64,000 nt of DNA. It comes from Phaeodactylum tricornutum CCAP 1055/1 (Eukaryota; Bacillariophyta; Bacillariophyceae; Surirellales; Neidiaceae). The number at the start of each line of letters is the position of its first letter. Positions within the stretch are counted from its first letter, which is position 1. The notes beneath the pieces are model-generated. The model did not search any database. It was not told the origin of the DNA and worked only from the letters and a program-made list of their open reading frames with translations. The DNA is taken from assembly GCF_000150955.2 (NCBI RefSeq), contig NC_011682.1, positions 592,897-656,896 of the forward strand, given 5' to 3'. The translations under genes and the position numbers were made by a program. Positions 39,809 to 50,456 of the stretch are shown one piece after another.

Positions 39809-42800
39809 ATGTGGCCTCCGTGTGCACAAAAACATGTGGCTACAAACAGCCTCGGCTCGGCACGATATAACTGTCGTTGGTTGCTAATCAGCCTGTGTAT
39901 TATGTGGATGACCACGGACATCGGCGCTCAACAAGATAACGACGAGATGATTCAGGTTGTTTCTCCAATTGTCAATCGAAAGCTCGAGACTTCGGTGGTC
40001 GCTGACGGATGGCCTTCGACACCACAAAATGTGCTGTGCGAAGCGTACGCCTACCACGAACGCAATCCTCTTTCCGCCAGATCGTTCTTGTCGAATCTAG
40101 TACAGCTTATCGGAAGTACAGAAACTTCTGCTGTCCCGTCCTTCGTGGGCATTGCCTTGGAGTCGTCGCCGTTGGAGGGGTCCGCTCGAGCTTTGCTCTC
40201 CTACGCATTGAGTCTCCGAGCCTACAGTCCGCAGTGTGAACTACACCGCAGCTTGGCTCGTCAAGCTCTATTGGAGCGTGTTGGCGAAGATCCGATTCTC
40301 GACGAAACGAAATCCAACGTGGATGTCTTTGCTGTAGTGTATCCATCCAATGCTCTCCTCTTCGAAGACGAGCTGCTAGCGACGGACTTTTCGAAACTGC
40401 CAAAGCCGACTTCTGGAGAAACCATTGATTCATTTTTGTTGCCGGATGAAATCATACTTGGTCACCAGGGAACATCAAGTGCGGACGAACCGTTGGTCAC
40501 GCTCTACGCCAACTTGGGGTCAATGGCCTTTGTACATGCGTACCGGCACCTCATCGATAGTGCCTCCGTGCGATTCGTGGTACGCTATCTGGGCGACGCT
40601 CAGATCGACAAACTTAACACCACTGGCGCAGCGTCCGACAACGGCTCGATCCCGACCGTATTACAAGGGTACGGAGTCCGTCTCGACATTCGCAACGTGG
40701 AGTACAAGGTGTTTGACGACCGTACGGATCAGTCGGAAGGTAACCATGACGAAGGGCTGGTGGATTTGCGTGCGGACCTGGATCCTGCACGTGTACCGCA
40801 AGAGTTTTTGGCGGGCGTGAATACAACATCCTTAGGATTGAATGTTTCCTCCGTGGCATCCCTTTGGAGAATTCATGCCCGTCAACAAGGATACGCCCAA
40901 CTGGTGCCCCCTGTATGGCAGCGCCGCCAGTTGCCCTTGCAGGCGGCCACCGTCCTGTCCCAAGCTCGCGAGGATGAGGACGTTCTGGAAACGCTTCAGC
41001 AGATTGCCCAAGATCTGCCGTCCATCGCCTCCACTCTGGTTCACGTGAAGATTGACGAGACGGTACAAACAGTGGCAAAGGCCTTGGAAAAGGACCGACT
41101 CTTGCGACGTGGTGCATTGTACGTCAATGGACGGGTAGTTGCCATGGATCGTACTACCTTTAACGTGTTTGAATTTCTCAACGTACTTCAGGAAGAATAT
41201 GATCGAGTAGAGACCTTGCAGAGTTTGTTAGGAAAGCATTTAAGCATCGAGGGGTTGCAAGCGGTGCAGAAAGCCTGGATGCAGGGAGAAACGTTCCTTG
41301 CCGATGCTACTGGGCAGGATTCCTCGTCCCCGAAGAATCCTCGTAGTGATGTCTTTCGTGTGGACGTTGCCCGCGGCGGAAAAGATGCTATCTTCTATCT
41401 TAACAATATCGAAAAGGATCGACAGTACCGGCAGTGGCCGCGATCAGTTCAGCAAATGCTCATGAGTATGCAGTTCGGCATGCCACCGATGGTCCGACGG
41501 AATTTGTTTACGATGCTAGCTGTGATTGACCCGATTGAAAATCACTCCAATCTTGGGCTGGAACTGGGCTTTCAACTCATGCAGAATTCGTTTCCAGCAC
41601 GAGTCGGTACGCTGTTGGTGAGTGCCAAGGATGTACAAGCGTGTAGAGACTGGGTTTTGAATCTGGATGAAAACGACAATGATCTTCCTTGCCCTACTGA
41701 ACCAATTCTCGCGCGGAAACCTAGTGCTAAAGATCTGGAGAAGATGCCAGCCACAACGCATGCATTGCATCGTCTCGTATCAGTTCTGTCAGCCGAATTT
41801 GTTGATCAACCCGAGGCAGTTATGGCGTATGTAGAATACATCCTATCGGCAATTGGAGAACACCAAGAAACACAAGGTTTCCTTTCCTTATCAGATTTGT
41901 TGTCTTTACACGGTAATCTAATGGACGGAATGCAAGTTATGTCCACCCAGAAAGCCCAGGCCAAAGCTCTGGATGATCTGGTAGGATTGGAAAGAAGTGA
42001 ATTCCAATACGGAAAAGCGCTGCGGTTTGCCGTCGAAAAACGTATTCTTCCGGGAATGAGTTTTCTGAACGGACGTCCACTTCCCACCGCCTCGGATGAC
42101 CTGAGCAAGGCTATCAGTGACACATTTGCGGAGGAGCAAAATCATGTGTTCAACATGGTTGTTGAGGGAGCAATTACGGACGATAGTCCGCGGTCCGTAT
42201 ACGCCAAAATTTTGACTGGAGATCGTGTTTTTCCATTCGCCCATCCGTTGCTGATGGGTGGGGATAAGGACCAAGTGAAGTATCTGCTGATCGAGCACTC
42301 GTTTGCGGCCGAATCTCTGCTGGCCCCGAGAAATACTGCCACCAAGCCAGATGCTCGTTTTATACTGGAAATGTTTTTGGATTTCGCGTCTCCACAAGGG
42401 GTTGATCTGGCGACACGAATTATTACTATTTTGGAAGAATTATCGCCCAGCCTTAAAGTCAGCGATGAAGAATCGCAGATTATGGTGGGATATCGACTCC
42501 TCCCGAGCACGCAAAATGCTGCAGATAGCGTGCTCTGTCCGGTGATGGAGCATGCCTCGCTATTTGGAGTGCACCTACTGAAGAAAGTTCTGTCCAAACA
42601 TTCACCAGCCGACGAAGCAAGATCATTGGATTCGTTTCTACAATCCGTTTCTGGAGTGCCCAAAGATCTTCGCAAGCAGATCTTACAGTCTGCCTCCCAG
42701 CAGAATGCTTGTAACAGCTCAAAGTATCTTTTGAGTAACCTCTCATTACCGGCGAAAAACTTTGTTGTGGGCAATGGACGTGTTTTTTCCTTGGAAAACA

Positions 42801-44949
42801 GCTCGATAGGAAAGGAAAACAGCGAGCTTCTTTTCAATTTGAAGCTTCTCCTACAAATTGAGCTTGCTCGGGCCAAGGCTGTTTCTAGCCTGCTGCGCGA
42901 ACACTTGGTGGACGAACGCGTTTGGGACTGCGATGCTGTTGCTTTGGCCGCTTGCTTCTTGGCTGTGGAACAAGACTTGAATTCGCGGGCGCGATTTGAC
43001 ATAGCCGAGCATATTGAGAAAGCTCTTTCGTCACTTGACGATGATCTTTTTGACGAAGTCAATCCCTTAAGATTTTCGTGGAACAAGAACTCGAAAGCAA
43101 AGCTACGGGTGAGATATATTCGGATGAAATTTGTAGTACCTCTAGTGCAGTACACGTGGAACTCAACTTATTTTCAATTTCTTGTGTACCGAAGGTCGAC
43201 GTTGTAGCAGTCCTTGATCCGGCTACAGAGGCTGCGCAACGGATCAGTCCCTTACTAAAGGTAATCCGAGACCAATTGGAATTGCCGGTGGCAGTTTTTG
43301 TTTGCCCTGAGACTATCATTGACAGTGACTCCAAGGTTCCGATCACGAGCTATTACCGATTCGTAGCCGATCCAGCAAGCTTGAGTCTTGCAAATCCCCC
43401 TTCGGCTCATTTTTCACACTTACCAGCAAACCATGTTCTCACTTTACGAATGGATATTCCAGAGCCATGGGACGTGCAACAGACTGCTGGTGTACAGGAT
43501 ACCGACAACCTGCGTTGTGATTTGCAATCCGGATGTGGGGACAGATCCAATGGGGATGGTCAGGAAAGAGTTGACCTTACGTCGGTCCAGTACGGATTGA
43601 AGTCGCTGCTTGTGTTCGGCCAATGCTTTGAGTCAAATGGAAAAGCTCCGAACGGATTGCAGCTGACTCTGACGGCTGCTCTTTCTTTGGGTCCCAACTC
43701 TAAGGATGAAACCTTAGTTGGTGCCGATGTGGAAATGGATGGGTCCTTGTCAAACACCGAGACAAAAGGCAGCACTCCACGGGCCTACTCGGACACTCTT
43801 GTTATGAAGAATGCAGGATATTGGCAGCTTCGGGCAAATCCGGGTGTTTGGTATCTAAGCATTGCTAATGAATCGAAGGGAGCAGATTTGTTCGACTTTG
43901 TAGATGGCGAAGCTCCTTTGGGGAAGAGTTTTGGCAATAGAGCAATGCGAACTTTGGCGACTTCGAAGCGAATTGTCATGAATGACTTCGTCAATCGCGG
44001 CGAGCTTCTTGTTGTAAAGCGCCGAGCGGGGTACGAGGACGCGAGCCTTTTTGATGAAAATGAAAGATTGCTTTCATCAACCGATACTGACGAGGTCATC
44101 AATGTCTTCTCTCTTGCCACCGGTCACTTGTACGAGAGGTTTCTCAAAATTATGATGCTTTCGGTCACAAAAAGGACCTCGACAAAGGTCAAATTCTGGC
44201 TCTTTGAAAACTTCCTCTCTCCCACATTCAAGATTACGGCTAGAGCGATGGCAGAGAGAATAGGATGTGAAGTAGAATTCGTCACTTACAAGTGGCCCGA
44301 ATGGCTCCGCAATCAGAGTGAAAAGCAGCGCATTATTTGGGGTTACAAAATTCTCTTTTTGGATGTGCTGTTCCCATTAAATGTCAAGAAAATTATTTAT
44401 GTTGATGCCGACCAAGTGGTTCGTGGGGATCTGAAGGAGCTGTGGGATATGGATTTGCAGGGTGCTCCGTATGGTTACACACCCTTTTGTACCTCGCGAG
44501 AGAGTACGCTCGGATACCAATTTTGGCGAGATGGATTTTGGAAGTCCCACCTTCAAGGCAAACCCTACCACATATCGGCACTTTATGTCGTTGATTTGGA
44601 GAACTTTCGTCGTACGTTAGTCGGGGACCAGCTGCGATCCATTTATCAACAGCTCTCCGGAAATCCGGATAGTCTGGCGAATCTCGATCAAGATCTCCCA
44701 AACTACGCTCAGCACCAAGTGCCCATCTTTAGTTTACCGCAAGAGTGGCTCTGGTGCGAGTCTTGGTGTTCAGATGAGACAAAGGGTACAGCAAAGACAA
44801 TCGATTTGTGCAACAACCCAGAACATAAAGAACCAAAAGTTTCGATGGCGAAGCGGATCGTTAGCGGGCCACTTTTCAACGAAAGCTGGGTTGAACTTGA
44901 CGCCGAAGTAGAAATGTACGAGCAAGCCTACTTCAAGGGGCAGCTGTAG
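39809..44949 (+). CDS. UGGT: UDP-glucose:glycoprotein glucosyltransferase (two exons)
   Basis: The ER folding sensor that re-glucosylates misfolded N-glycoproteins so that calreticulin-type lectins rebind them. Exon 1 is 39809-43108, exon 2 is 43195-44949. The 86-bp intron (GTGAGA donor, CCGAAG acceptor) joins in phase 0 as KLR/VDVVAVLDPAT, a conserved UGGT block. The protein has 1684 residues against ~1550 in animals. A signal peptide covers about the first 45 residues. The long N-terminal sensor region (thioredoxin-like modules) has little sequence conservation. The C-terminal GT24 catalytic domain (about 1410-1680) has NVFSLATGHLYERFL, IIYVDADQVVRGDL (DAD metal site), GYQFWRDGFW and NLDQDLPNY. 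It ends in KGQL rather than a canonical KDEL/HDEL signal. Confidence 0.93.
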
Positions 44950-45019: not shown

Positions 45020-48000
45020 TCATGCTAAATCATAATCAAAAGCAATCGCAATTTCGGAGCCGTTCTCTAGGGCGTCATAAGCTTCTTGAGCGTCTTCTAG
45101 CTTCGTCCTTTTTGTTACGAGTCGCGACGGACGATATTCTCGCACTAGCTCCCACGCTAGCGCAAATCTTCTCTCCTTGGTCCATGTCGATCCAAGCTCG
45201 GCAGGGATTTTGCTCACTTGTGAAGTTTTTAAAATCTTGTGGCTGCGGTGGAACTCAATACCAAGGTTAAGATCTACAGCAGTGCTTCCGTACCATGACG
45301 CGATGACAATACGCCCCCCTTCTTTCACGTTGTCGATCGCTGCTTGGAGAGCGCGGCCGTTACCGCTGACTTCAATTGCCACGTCAAAAGGGCCCGCCGT
45401 CTTCACTTCAGATGGCAAAAGCGCCTGGGTCGCTCCCATCAGTGCTGACATCGCAAGACGATCGGGAAGCATGTCAAAGACCGTTAACGCTCGCAATCGT
45501 CCCGAAGTATCAAAGCCTTGCTTAGAAAACAGCGCCGTCACCAAGAGACCAATAAGACCTTGGCCGAAAACAGCCACGTTTTCTCCCATACGAATATGAG
45601 CGTCGTGGACAATCGACAAGGCTGTTTCTACCGACGGCATAAATATTGCGTCAAGAGCGCCGATGCCGTCAGGTACTATCTGTATGGCATCTCTATCCGT
45701 TACTACCTCCGAGGCGTGAGACGAAAAAGTAAATACCAGCTTGCCCAAAATGTCCCCTGGATTGGAAATATCCATGCCGCACTCCACAACACGACCGACG
45801 GAGCAATAGCCATATGAAAGGGGATAAGACATGCGCTCCTCTGTCATTCCCTCTATGTTAAGGTCCAGAGCAGCATCTTCAAATAGCCCCTTGAATATCT
45901 TCAATTCCGTCCCAGAACTAATTAGTGAGTGTATGGCTCGAATGCGGACTTGATTGGGTCCAAGGGCGACGAGCTTTCTTGATATTGCTTTCACTTTGAA
46001 GGGAGCCGTAAATTGGATTTCCTGGAACGTGTGTGTCTGATTTCGCGATGTATCACTCGACTGCTCAGATTTTACCTGCCAACTTCCCACATGCGGAAAG
46101 CGAAAGAGCAAGTCCGTGTTGGAAACTTGAATCGAAGGTCTGAGGCCCCGTGTCCGTTCCAACCAACCCAAAGCATTCCATGCCGCCTTCTCGAGTACAC
46201 TCGAGGTGACGGTTCCGAAAAAATACAGCATAGTTTCCCACAAGTATTCGTCACGAGAAGGATCGATTTGCCAGTCAGATTGACCTCTTGCCAAACATGT
46301 CGCGCCGTAGTCCCCCAATGCCTGTTCCAAACTATACGGATCCAAGCTGTGTCCGTGAATCTCCCGGAGCGCTTTGGCGTAGAGTGCGAATGCAGTTGTA
46401 TCCGACGGTATGTTTGCAATCCATTCCATTGGTTGGGGTGGCAAGAACTGAGTGACACCGCAAAAGGTTATGGGGAAGTAGACTAGGGTATGGTCAAAAT
46501 GACTCAAAGATGGCGGTGCTAGAAATCGTCGAAGGAGGGATCTGGACAATTCGTACGGATCCATGAGATCGGCAAAGCAGCAACCAACTATGACGTGTGG
46601 CGTCGGTTGCGGTCGGTGCATTTCGCGTTGATAGTCCCAAAAACGAAGATAAACAGTGACCTTTGGCTGATCGTCGGTCGTGTTCGCGGGTTTGACCATG
46701 ATAAATTCTTGACAAGACTGTGGCGTCGGACTACTCGAATCTTCCCATTGCAACGTTTGTTGCAAACCAAAACCCAGACGCTCCAACTCTACGGTAGCTG
46801 CATATCCTAACTCACGGTTTGGTTCGTAGGCGTAGTATTCCAGAGAGGAGACGCCAGGATGTTGATTTTCTCGTAAAAGGTGTACCAACGAAGGTAACCG
46901 GGCTCCGTGTCCGTGCAGTATCAGTCGCAACATGGAGAGAAGCCCGGCCCCTACGTCAACTACACATAGCGGAGAGCCTGTACTTAGAGTACCTTTCGCG
47001 TTGTTGAATTCCTCCTTGCGTTGTGCTCGCAGCTCCATTCCAAGTCGTTGCCAGGTTCCTTCGTGAATCGATTCCATATCGACGACGTTTTTGGCCCGCA
47101 AATACTCCATTTGGGAAAATTCGAAGGCCGGATCTGTCCAACCAATTGCCTGCCCTAGTCCCTGCAGCAACGAAGATTTTTCCGACACGAGAATCCCCTG
47201 TAAATTCTTCTGCAAAGCCTCCACAGACCGCAGGATGGTTGGTGAATCGTCCAGCAATACTTCACAGATACCCCGCACGTTCGGGAAAAAGTTTGGTGAC
47301 AACTTTGTGGGAAAATCCTCTTTGCAGCCAGTGTCACTACGGAAAGGAATATTCGCTCCCAGAGACGGGGCGTCGGCGCAGTCGGGTGTGCAGACGGCGT
47401 GCCATGGAATACGGGTCAGTCCAAGAGCTTGGATGACTTTAGAAATATGGCGCTTGGGCGAATTAGAGGCCAAGCCAACGGGTACGGGGGAGTATCGCAA
47501 CGCATCGCGTAACAAGGTTTGTTGCTGGGCCACAGCGTTGTGTGAGTAACCCGTGGAAGATGCTCCTCCGTGAGAGTGACGGGAACGGTCGGTGTCGAGT
47601 AGTGCGGTTACGTCCACGTCTTGGTAGACACGTTCGTAAAAGTTCCGCATCTTTGCCGATAACTCGTTTGGCAAAAGATTCTTCCACCGTGTTTGTCGCA
47701 AGCCTTCAATTGTGGACCCGTACTGCTGATGAAGGGCGTCGGCTCGTTCTTGTGGTGATGCTGAAGCAGCGACCTTGTCGGTATCGTCCGATTCGAAACG
47801 CTCATAAAATTCGTGAACGCCGCGTACGATTTGCGCTTCGATGCCTCTTCCGATGCCCGATAGGATGGATTCACTGTACAACGTGTTGTCCACGTCCAAC
47901 CAAAGGCGATCAGGAGGAACATACCCCGGTGTCGTCGTCGACGACGAGGGGCCGGAGACGGCGACCACGTATACCACCGACACCAGGAAACAAAGCCCTC

Positions 48001-48037
48001 GCATTGGCCGCAAGAGTAGTCTCACTTCACGCCTCAT
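45020..48037 (-). CDS. Three-part fusion: HAD hydrolase, methyltransferase-like, zinc-free MDR reductase
   Basis: From ATG 48037 (first in frame) the protein has 1005 residues and begins with a hydrophobic signal sequence (about 12-28). The HAD domain (about 43-300) has all four motifs: DVDNTLYSE (D48, D50), VGLASNS, the Lys in CKEDFPTK, and VLLDDSP. It resembles pyrimidine 5'-nucleotidases of the SDT1 type. A middle region (about 355-560) looks like a SAM methyltransferase: VVDVGAGLLSML, the acidic AYEPNREL strand and VIVGCCFADLMDPYEL. The C-terminal ~320 residues form a medium-chain dehydrogenase: IRAIHSLISSGTELKI, SYGYCSVGRV in place of the zinc GHE motif, and GQGLIGLL for NAD(P)H (about 825-832). 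It resembles BchC-like zinc-free members. Substrate unknown; the parts probably act on one metabolite. Confidence 0.8.
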   Translation of the reverse strand: MRREVRLLLRPMRGLCFLVSVVYVVAVSGPSSSTTTPGYVPPDRLWLDVDNTLYSESILSGIGRGIEAQIVRGVHEFYERFESDDTDKVAASASPQERADALHQQYGSTIEGLRQTRWKNLLPNELSAKMRNFYERVYQDVDVTALLDTDRSRHSHGGASSTGYSHNAVAQQQTLLRDALRYSPVPVGLASNSPKRHISKVIQALGLTRIPWHAVCTPDCADAPSLGANIPFRSDTGCKEDFPTKLSPNFFPNVRGICEVLLDDSPTILRSVEALQKNLQGILVSEKSSLLQGLGQAIGWTDPAFEFSQMEYLRAKNVVDMESIHEGTWQRLGMELRAQRKEEFNNAKGTLSTGSPLCVVDVGAGLLSMLRLILHGHGARLPSLVHLLRENQHPGVSSLEYYAYEPNRELGYAATVELERLGFGLQQTLQWEDSSSPTPQSCQEFIMVKPANTTDDQPKVTVYLRFWDYQREMHRPQPTPHVIVGCCFADLMDPYELSRSLLRRFLAPPSLSHFDHTLVYFPITFCGVTQFLPPQPMEWIANIPSDTTAFALYAKALREIHGHSLDPYSLEQALGDYGATCLARGQSDWQIDPSRDEYLWETMLYFFGTVTSSVLEKAAWNALGWLERTRGLRPSIQVSNTDLLFRFPHVGSWQVKSEQSSDTSRNQTHTFQEIQFTAPFKVKAISRKLVALGPNQVRIRAIHSLISSGTELKIFKGLFEDAALDLNIEGMTEERMSYPLSYGYCSVGRVVECGMDISNPGDILGKLVFTFSSHASEVVTDRDAIQIVPDGIGALDAIFMPSVETALSIVHDAHIRMGENVAVFGQGLIGLLVTALFSKQGFDTSGRLRALTVFDMLPDRLAMSALMGATQALLPSEVKTAGPFDVAIEVSGNGRALQAAIDNVKEGGRIVIASWYGSTAVDLNLGIEFHRSHKILKTSQVSKIPAELGSTWTKERRFALAWELVREYRPSRLVTKRTKLEDAQEAYDALENGSEIAIAFDYDLA

Positions 48038-48515: not shown

Positions 48516-50456
48516 ATGGGAACGGCTCTGGGAAAGGAAGACGAGGGTCAAATCCCACGTCAACTGGATGCCGTTACCGAGTCGGAGCAGACCGATCAAC
48601 GAAAGAGCAATGCGGTCGCGGCAGAAAGCGAGGAGTTTCATCGAGCACCGCAACGCCAGACGCTACATATGCGGAAGGAATCCAAAGAGTTTCTGAACAC
48701 TATGCATTCCTACTTGGATTGCAAACGAAAATTGGAAGCCTTGGCAGGCAAAGTGGACCCCTGCCGAACACTGCACGGCATGACGCTATATACGCACTCG
48801 GGCGGAATACGCGAGGCGGACGGAACCTACAAAGCGACTTATCGGCAGCAAAACCAATCTGGAAACCCGGTTCGAGACTCGGAGGAACTCCTGCAAGCCG
48901 CCACGGTGACACGACCTCTCTTTTTGGCGCTCATGCAACAACTAGCATCCCAAATAATGCAAAAACGACAAGATCTGCGCCGGGACGGTGCGCAATTCAA
49001 GGCACTGGTCGAACTTCCCCTCAAAGCCTGGTCGAGGATTGTGGAAAAGTCACGGGACGACTACGCGAAACGGACACCGGGTCCACCGGAAGCATGGCTC
49101 TACGATCTCAACCGCGCTTCCGTTCTTTGCCCTGACGTTGCCACCATGGACGCCGTCGTTACGTGGCTTTACAAAAATACATATATTGTTACGGCCAAGA
49201 ATCGCTTTCATCGGCCCACTATCAGCGGATACCGTGACTTGCTCTTTGTTTTACGGATACCCGTGAGACCCACGGATCAACAAGGCGGTACCGGTTCACC
49301 CGCCAATCCTGTTCTATTTTTTCACATGTGCGAACTGCAAGTGCATCACGAACAAATTTGGCAACTTAGCAAAACACTGGAGACGCACAGGCTATATCGA
49401 TACTTTCGCTCCTACTTTTGCGGCAACGACGAAGCCAGTGTCGGGAAGCTGATGACAGAACTGGTTGAAATTGAAGATTCTGGCAAACTCGATACGATGG
49501 TTGTACAGCGAGTGCTGGAATCGGACGACGTCCCGCGGATACGCAAGCTCACCGAGCTCTTTCAACATCTGCCAGAGCACGATTTTGCCCTACTCTTGTC
49601 CCAACGCGCTCTCGACATTCACGTGGCGGCCGAACCGGATGCTCCTAGCCATAGCAAGCATGAAACCCACCACAGTCATCGTATCAACGTTGCCGAATCG
49701 TACAACCATATTGGCGACATACTTTTGGCTAAGGGAGAGTATCTTAGTGCCTTGACGCACTATCGACAGGCACTCGATATTTACCTACAGACGCTTGGCC
49801 CACAGCACGTCCAGACGGCAGCGACACACAACGCGATTGGTCTAGTGCTATCCAATCAAGCATCGTACGACGAGGCCTTGATTCATTTCGAAAAAGCACT
49901 CGCAATTTTTTCAGCGCCCGGGGGAGACAGCAGCAGCAACAATACCGACCAGAGTATCGCCAAAAATGCCCATCCCCAGGCCGCCACCGCTTGGATTTAC
50001 ATTGGTCACATTGCCCAGGCTCGTGGAAATCTGGAGCAAGCTCGGGAGAATTACGAAAAAGCGCGTGCAATCGCTTCGGCGCTGGAGGAACAGCTATACG
50101 GAACGAAACAGACTCTACTCGCCACGACAGAAACGAATTTGGGAATTGTAAGCTACCATCAGGGGGACCTGGACGATGCCTTGGTGCACATGCAACAGGC
50201 ATTGGCTACCCGTCAAGCTGTTCTGGGACGTAAGCATCGTCAAACTGGTCTAGTCCACGAGGCATTGGGAACAATTTGGCGTGATCTGGGAAATTTGGAA
50301 ACCGCCGCTGAACACTTCTGTCAAGCGAACAGCATTGATCAAGGAACAACATGTGACTGGGAACGCTCGCTATTGAAGAAACGGTTGCATTGGAGCACAG
50401 GGGGACTCTCTATCGATGAGAAAGTGAGCCGGACTTCTACAGAGGAGTTACCGTAG
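48516..50456 (+). CDS. RelA/SpoT-like fold joined to tetratricopeptide repeats
   Basis: A 646-residue protein. Residues about 160-310 carry the order of motifs seen in RelA/SpoT-like nucleotidyltransferase folds: KSRDDYAKR, a Leu-rich DLNRASVLCPD strand, TAKNRF, ISGYRDLLFVLR and CELQVHHEQI, with HRLYRYFRSYF after it. Catalytic status as a (p)ppGpp synthetase is uncertain; the family also includes inactive members. From about 390 to 620 lie at least five TPRs of the kinesin-light-chain type, with AxxYNxxG and YxxALxxYxxAL patterns. An N-terminal MGTALGKE could be N-myristoylated, placing it at a membrane. The basic, polar first 100 residues look disordered. No signal peptide or intron. It may bind partners through TPRs while the fold binds nucleotide; this is inferred. 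Confidence 0.75.
   Translation: MGTALGKEDEGQIPRQLDAVTESEQTDQRKSNAVAAESEEFHRAPQRQTLHMRKESKEFLNTMHSYLDCKRKLEALAGKVDPCRTLHGMTLYTHSGGIREADGTYKATYRQQNQSGNPVRDSEELLQAATVTRPLFLALMQQLASQIMQKRQDLRRDGAQFKALVELPLKAWSRIVEKSRDDYAKRTPGPPEAWLYDLNRASVLCPDVATMDAVVTWLYKNTYIVTAKNRFHRPTISGYRDLLFVLRIPVRPTDQQGGTGSPANPVLFFHMCELQVHHEQIWQLSKTLETHRLYRYFRSYFCGNDEASVGKLMTELVEIEDSGKLDTMVVQRVLESDDVPRIRKLTELFQHLPEHDFALLLSQRALDIHVAAEPDAPSHSKHETHHSHRINVAESYNHIGDILLAKGEYLSALTHYRQALDIYLQTLGPQHVQTAATHNAIGLVLSNQASYDEALIHFEKALAIFSAPGGDSSSNNTDQSIAKNAHPQAATAWIYIGHIAQARGNLEQARENYEKARAIASALEEQLYGTKQTLLATTETNLGIVSYHQGDLDDALVHMQQALATRQAVLGRKHRQTGLVHEALGTIWRDLGNLETAAEHFCQANSIDQGTTCDWERSLLKKRLHWSTGGLSIDEKVSRTSTEELP

Follow-up and report, generated by a model that had tools for sequence, protein, structure and literature searches.

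Phaeodactylum tricornutum encodes, in a stretch of 64,000 nucleotides of its genome (C14:592897-656896, here called the window), a single predicted protein that joins a HAD hydrolase part, a methyltransferase-like part and a zinc-free dehydrogenase (MDR) part behind a signal-like N-terminus, which raises the question of what metabolic pathway the three parts may serve together. An earlier note on this DNA described the arrangement and proposed three sequential steps on one metabolite in the plastid or secretory path. The arrangement is confirmed from the sequence: 1005 residues and a stop codon form one uninterrupted frame that begins with the ATG at 48037. The features of the gene are as follows:

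45020..48037, minus strand: whole gene, single open frame of 1005 codons
47951..48001, minus strand: hydrophobic signal-like segment, residues 13-29 (hydropathy)
47138..47911, minus strand: HAD part, pyrimidine 5'-nucleotidase-like, about residues 43-300 (TIGR01993, hhalign, motifs)
47876..47905, minus strand: HAD motif I, LWLDVDNTLY (sequence motif)
47240..47263, minus strand: HAD motif IV, EVLLDDSP (sequence motif)
46052..47140, minus strand: class I SAM methyltransferase part, about residues 300-662 (profile at 59.9 bits, AlphaFold and VIA-align, alignment A7)
46916..46969, minus strand: SAM-binding-like motif block, LCVVDVGAGLLSMLRLIL, with the third glycine of GxGxG replaced by Leu
45023..46051, minus strand: zinc-free MDR of the PTPS-cluster MDR family, about residues 663-1005 (profile, tree, relatives)
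45887..45925, minus strand: SSGTE block, with Ser707 at the position of the zinc-ligand Cys (alignment, motif)
45539..45577, minus strand: putative NAD(P)-binding motif, VAVFGQGLIGLLV (alignment, motif)

Judged by hydropathy, the N-terminus resembles a signal peptide or a membrane anchor; inspection by eye for an ASAFAP-type motif, the plastid-targeting motif sought at this end of the protein, found none, and the plastid half of the proposed location is not supported. The gene lies head to head with that of a 646-residue TPR-repeat protein (48516-50456, plus strand). A UDP-glucose:glycoprotein glucosyltransferase is encoded at 39809-44949 (plus strand) by two overlapping frames, one with thioredoxin-like domains (39809-43207) and one with Glyco_transf_24 (43078-44949), which are probably one gene with an intron. 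Homology searches covered prokaryotes, plasmids, viral contigs and this diatom genome (27,450,724 bases in 88 contigs). Apart from the gene itself, the diatom genome matches the protein in a single 53-residue stretch (E 0.02), the viral contigs held no relative of the whole protein or of the HAD part alone, and PADLOC reported nothing.

The C-terminal part scores 326 bits against a profile of MDR proteins encoded in prokaryotic gene clusters with PTPS. Its zinc-ligand positions are occupied by Ser707 and Tyr744 and a candidate NAD(P) motif is present, so that its earlier description as an NAD(P)H-binding MDR without zinc ligands holds. Ser and Tyr are found at these positions in 74 of 77 relatives each (the diatom row left out); Cys and His occupy them in 2 of the 77, both of which are a different MDR, and 1 has a gap. 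At two loci (L010 and L090) the wrong MDR was taken, and both are kept in the counts out of 77 and in the tree. A zinc-binding alcohol dehydrogenase was rejected as an identity for the diatom MDR, from which the catalytic Cys and His ligands are absent. In an 81-row tree the diatom MDR nests within the cluster MDR family on a long branch (2.08 changes per column), with no firm sister. Plasmid tblastn (356 matching records, 30 listed) found near relatives in haloarchaea and rhizobia, the best of them 34-38% identical among the matches listed and annotated as 'zinc-binding alcohol dehydrogenase'; among these same listed matches, the closest adjoin genes for GTP cyclohydrolase and PTPS. PHROGs gave a clear match to the MDR part, and the MDR alignment found one relative in the viral contigs (L020), incomplete at the contig end. 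Pfam returned three dehydrogenase matches to the C-terminal part, all under their cut-offs. The best NCBIfam match is BchC (TIGR01202; E 2e-13, 50.1 bits versus a cut-off of 291.25), and L-threonine dehydrogenase (NF003808) also matches, far under its cut-off. The diatom part shares with these best named profiles the MDR fold and the NAD(P) motif, but differs from BchC and threonine dehydrogenase-like MDRs in its low scores, in the replacement of the zinc ligands by Ser and Tyr and in its PTPS-cluster context.

This context emerged when the diatom MDR part, aligned with three plasmid relatives, was used to scan 84,980 prokaryote genomes, which yielded at least 596 stretches and at least 560 relatives; the 88 loci examined are the best 80 of the at least 560, picked by MDR similarity alone, together with 7 plasmid loci and 1 viral locus. 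The best 80 of the at least 560 come from Chloroflexota, Deltaproteobacteria, haloarchaea, Methanosarcinales, Spirochaetota, Actinomycetota and others. Profiles of recurrent neighbours match PTPS in 75 of the 88 loci, a GT4 glycosyltransferase in 71, a methyltransferase in 51, RibA or RibD in 45 and GTP cyclohydrolase IIa in 18; the 'RIBA_D' profile mixes the first two of these last enzymes, and splitting it by the better match gives RibA in 24 and RibD in 39 of the 88. The common gene order is cyclohydrolase/RibD - MDR - PTPS - GT4 - methyltransferase, and variants exist. Within 5 kb of the MDR gene, with PTPS, GT4 and methyltransferase counted on the strand of the MDR and other genes on either strand, the best 80 of the at least 560 loci hold PTPS in 69, GT4 in 58, methyltransferase in 43 and RibA/RibD or cyclohydrolase IIa in 58; for the 51 of them with at least 2 kb of flank upstream and at least 4 kb downstream, the corresponding counts are 49, 39, 33 and 36. 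PTPS is absent from this interval in 11 of the best 80 of the at least 560, and two less related MDR loci (L016, L018), the sole comparison for the rate of MDR-PTPS linkage (n=2), have no PTPS. At five plasmid loci (L007-L010 and L017) a 6-carboxytetrahydropterin synthase gene lies closely behind the MDR gene, in L017 with one short gene between. Neighbouring genes in bacteria, which the earlier note had suggested looking for, do exist: genes homologous to the methyltransferase and MDR parts are clustered in many bacteria and archaea, and at least 3 of the 88 loci have a HAD gene behind the methyltransferase gene.

The cyclohydrolase of the cluster is a RibA-type GTP cyclohydrolase II in bacteria and cyclohydrolase IIa in haloarchaea. 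These are unrelated enzymes that both lead to riboflavin-type pyrimidines, and it is mainly for this reason that the start of the pathway is placed at such a pyrimidine; the product of the cluster is probably a small molecule derived from GTP. For two Chloroflexota genomes (G002, G003) the cluster copy is the only GTP cyclohydrolase II found, so that the cluster may also feed riboflavin there; in the genome of L022 the only GTP cyclohydrolase II found sits off the cluster contig. Among the other genes near the cluster, CDP-alcohol phosphatidyltransferases match in 26 of the 88 loci (for example L007, L008, L026, L029, L041, L071 and L096), and smaller recurrent groups are flippase-, acyltransferase- and sulfatase-like, names given partly by eye.

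The middle part of the diatom protein resembles another member of this cluster. A profile of the cluster methyltransferases scores 59.9 bits against it, versus at most 4.4 bits in 500 shuffles, and scores 17.2, 8.4 and -2.8 bits against three generic methyltransferases; the first such profile was built from 4 rows and a later one from 33. Blocks YLxAKxxVD and SDW are common to the diatom middle part and the cluster methyltransferases, and the two are homologous. A class I methyltransferase fold, the lack of which the earlier note had named as a sign against its proposal, is predicted for the middle part (AlphaFold, VIA-align). The methyltransferase rows are about 19-26% identical in alignment A7, versus 9-15% in the full-length alignment A8, which was therefore not folded. 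The SAM-binding-like block of the earlier note is present in modified form, the putative motif reading DVGAGLL and keeping two of the three glycines of GxGxG, and the nearly invariant C-terminal Q and D of HQxD are both changed. Because of the altered third glycine and the changed Q and D, methyltransferase activity of the diatom part is not certain. Nor is its substrate given by the fold that it has in common with GtmA, OxaG and TmtA, class I SAM methyltransferases of secondary metabolism that are 10-11% identical to it in sequence.

The HAD part is tied to the pathway more weakly than the methyltransferase and MDR parts. All four HAD motifs had been claimed for it; motifs I, II and IV are clear, and motif III is a candidate lysine. 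TIGR01993 matches at E 4.2e-5 with 23.4 bits, short of the curated cut-off of 142.9, and hhalign against three TIGR01993-like proteins gives 91% probability, with an E-value that is rough, coming from comparison with one small profile. Motifs I and II and the YGxxxxGL block of the cap align with members of the TIGR01993 family from this genome and from a Chloroflexota genome; the diatom part differs from the family in scoring far under the cut-off, in having insertions and in being fused to two other parts. Its likeness to pyrimidine nucleotidases fits a pyrimidine ribotide as substrate. Pfam gave no match to the HAD part, and the sole match in the plasmid search had an E-value of 0.9. The predicted structure of this part (pLDDT 36, pTM 0.20, from an input of 4 rows whose copies of motif IV did not line up) is excluded from the evidence, fragment alignments having been no better. 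A HAD_2 gene stands immediately behind the methyltransferase gene in L022, L023 and L042 (at least 3 of the 88 loci) and a second HAD group matches in 8 of the 88, all archaeal. Pfam was run on 107 of 275 leftover neighbour frames, and the HAD count among these is biased upwards since four minus-strand frames of a recurrent HAD group were deliberately included. The HAD_2 proteins of these three loci show no close kinship to the diatom HAD part. The idea of three steps on one metabolite is substantially supported by the two parts homologous to cluster neighbours and by the HAD genes behind the methyltransferase in at least 3 of the 88 loci, and the steps may be sequential. A second nucleotidase-type fusion occurs elsewhere in the diatom genome: a 484-residue frame (L101 733-2187; C2, around 462282) has a C-terminal part that matches TIGR01993 and an N-terminal part that is Nudix-like by eye.

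The diatom genome holds two PTPS genes, on contigs C7 and C2, and the C7 protein is of the cluster type. It has a hydrophobic N-terminus of its own (hydropathy maximum 1.75), is 50% identical to the cluster PTPS of the purple sulfur bacterium Thiodictyon and 44% to that of Streptomyces, and has in common with six proteobacterial and actinobacterial cluster PTPS, including that of Thiodictyon, the motif variant Ala...HGA. A plasmid search with the C7 protein returned 20 records, and in 6 of the 7 opened an MDR gene lies directly upstream, the seventh having no MDR beside PTPS. At the CxxxHGH position, the 71 of 76 cluster PTPS matches that were motif-parsed carry Glu (59), Ala (10), Gln (1, probably a misparse) and Cys (1), the last being a second, canonical PTPS copy in L042; Cys is absent in 70 of the 71 frames. 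Those cluster PTPS that are annotated as 6-carboxytetrahydropterin synthase mostly carry Glu, or Ala, where QueD has cysteine. From these residues, the annotation is probably wrong for the Glu/Ala type. In the viral contigs, 24 stretches fit a DNA pattern written for the PTPS motif of the C7 type, and at E<=1e-4 the profiles of PTPS, MDR, methyltransferase and RibA/RibD matched none of them. The search of the diatom genome found no close relative of the cluster GT4, only partial matches to other glycosyltransferases. It also has a divergent second RibA-like frame of 427 residues (L014 799-2079; C1:610024), which we take to resemble the uracil-catabolism type URC1. The C2 PTPS has an ExxHGH motif, which PMC5041015 gives for the folate enzyme PTPS-III, and PMC7859220 names one P. 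tricornutum 6-pyruvoyl tetrahydropterin synthase gene.

Part of the prokaryotic neighbourhood is already on record. PMC5445326 reports PTPS-IV, a subfamily of COG0720, with the signature FGPAQ and the neighbours PF00925 (there called FolE2; the Pfam name is GTP cyclohydrolase II) and PF01872 (RibD C-terminal), and the cluster found here has both neighbours. FGPAQ occurs in alphaproteobacterial cluster PTPS, and the diatom C7 PTPS has FGPAG. In contrast to the present cluster, the passages of PMC5445326 and PMC5041015 on PTPS-IV mention neither the MDR, GT4 and methyltransferase, nor any eukaryote or fusion, nor the Glu-type PTPS of haloarchaea and deltaproteobacteria; the published neighbourhood, as given in PMC5445326, is a partial view of the cluster. 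Haloarchaeal riboflavin and folate genes are discussed in PMC3403918, whose passages on them do not mention the cluster. A search of the open literature found no paper that describes the diatom fusion or places MDR, GT4 and methyltransferase genes together in the cluster, and no enzymatic function for PTPS-IV except an unpublished remark on a role in F420, quoted in PMC5041015.

We consider it probable, on balance, that the diatom gene encodes a multifunctional enzyme of the pathway that is clustered around PTPS-IV-type proteins in bacteria and archaea. An alternative, which we hold to be somewhat unlikely, is that the parts descend from the cluster families but now catalyse a different reaction in the diatom, with the C7 PTPS unconnected to the fusion protein. 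The long branch of the diatom MDR, the altered glycine of the SAM motif and the missing GT4 are consistent with recruitment, as is the different bacterial affinity of the diatom PTPS, which is of the proteobacterial/actinobacterial type, whereas the diatom methyltransferase part scores better against the other type. PTPS, methyltransferase and MDR (the last with no firm sister) point to different prokaryotic groups and so may not share one history. Against recruitment, the two families, which elsewhere are largely confined to one cluster, occur together in the diatom genome.

Synthesis of the chromophore FO also starts from the riboflavin-type pyrimidine, and the cluster and the diatom protein could instead serve FO or cofactor F420, as the remark on PTPS-IV would have it. 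We hold this role to be improbable. Of 18 cluster genomes, several of them MAGs of unknown completeness, 9 have some CofH match, which passes the cut-off in 2, and the other 9 have none; matches under the cut-off are unspecific and also present in control genomes such as E. coli. The diatom genome has no CofH match, and no F420 genes were seen named in the annotated clusters. Very improbable is a BchC-like dehydrogenase of the bacteriochlorophyll/chlorophyll type that is fused to a methyltransferase and works on plastid pigments: although no NCBIfam family matches the C-terminal part better than BchC, the score lies far under the cut-off, the fusion protein has no plastid motif visible by eye, and haloarchaea, deltaproteobacteria and other lineages account for the nearest MDR relatives (best 80 of at least 560), most of which adjoin PTPS genes.

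For an enzyme of the PTPS-IV-type pathway, we infer the substrates, order of steps, product and location as follows. A GTP cyclohydrolase (II in bacteria, IIa in haloarchaea), in many loci accompanied by a RibD-type reductase, would make and reduce a riboflavin-type pyrimidine ribotide, and the PTPS-like protein, which lacks the usual catalytic cysteine, would rearrange an intermediate. Before this rearrangement the HAD part may take the 5'-phosphate off the intermediate; in riboflavin synthesis the phosphate step is likewise carried out by HAD phosphatases, and a nucleotidase-type HAD suits such a step. The zinc-free, NAD(P)-dependent MDR would oxidize or reduce a side-chain carbon, the SAM methyltransferase would act near the end, and in prokaryotes GT4 would glycosylate, giving a decorated pyrimidine- or pteridine-type small molecule that may be lipid-linked there. 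In the diatom, methyltransferase and MDR follow a signal-like N-terminus and a HAD phosphatase of the nucleotidase type on one polypeptide, the matching PTPS is encoded separately on C7, and all steps may take place in one compartment. More tentatively, as a possibility that we would not yet call likely, the diatom and many bacteria and archaea may have in common an undescribed pathway that leaves riboflavin synthesis at its first steps and leads through PTPS-IV to a new methylated (in prokaryotes also glycosylated) pyrimidine- or pteridine-type cofactor, pigment or signal, three steps of which would be carried out by one polypeptide on the secretory route of the diatom.

Database names are affected, since the 'zinc-binding' dehydrogenase of the cluster is without zinc ligands and its '6-carboxytetrahydropterin synthase' is without the cysteine in nearly all parsed frames. 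The fusion would tie a generically named methyltransferase and a zinc-free dehydrogenase to one pathway, and would extend that pathway from bacteria and archaea to an alga that is probably genetically tractable.
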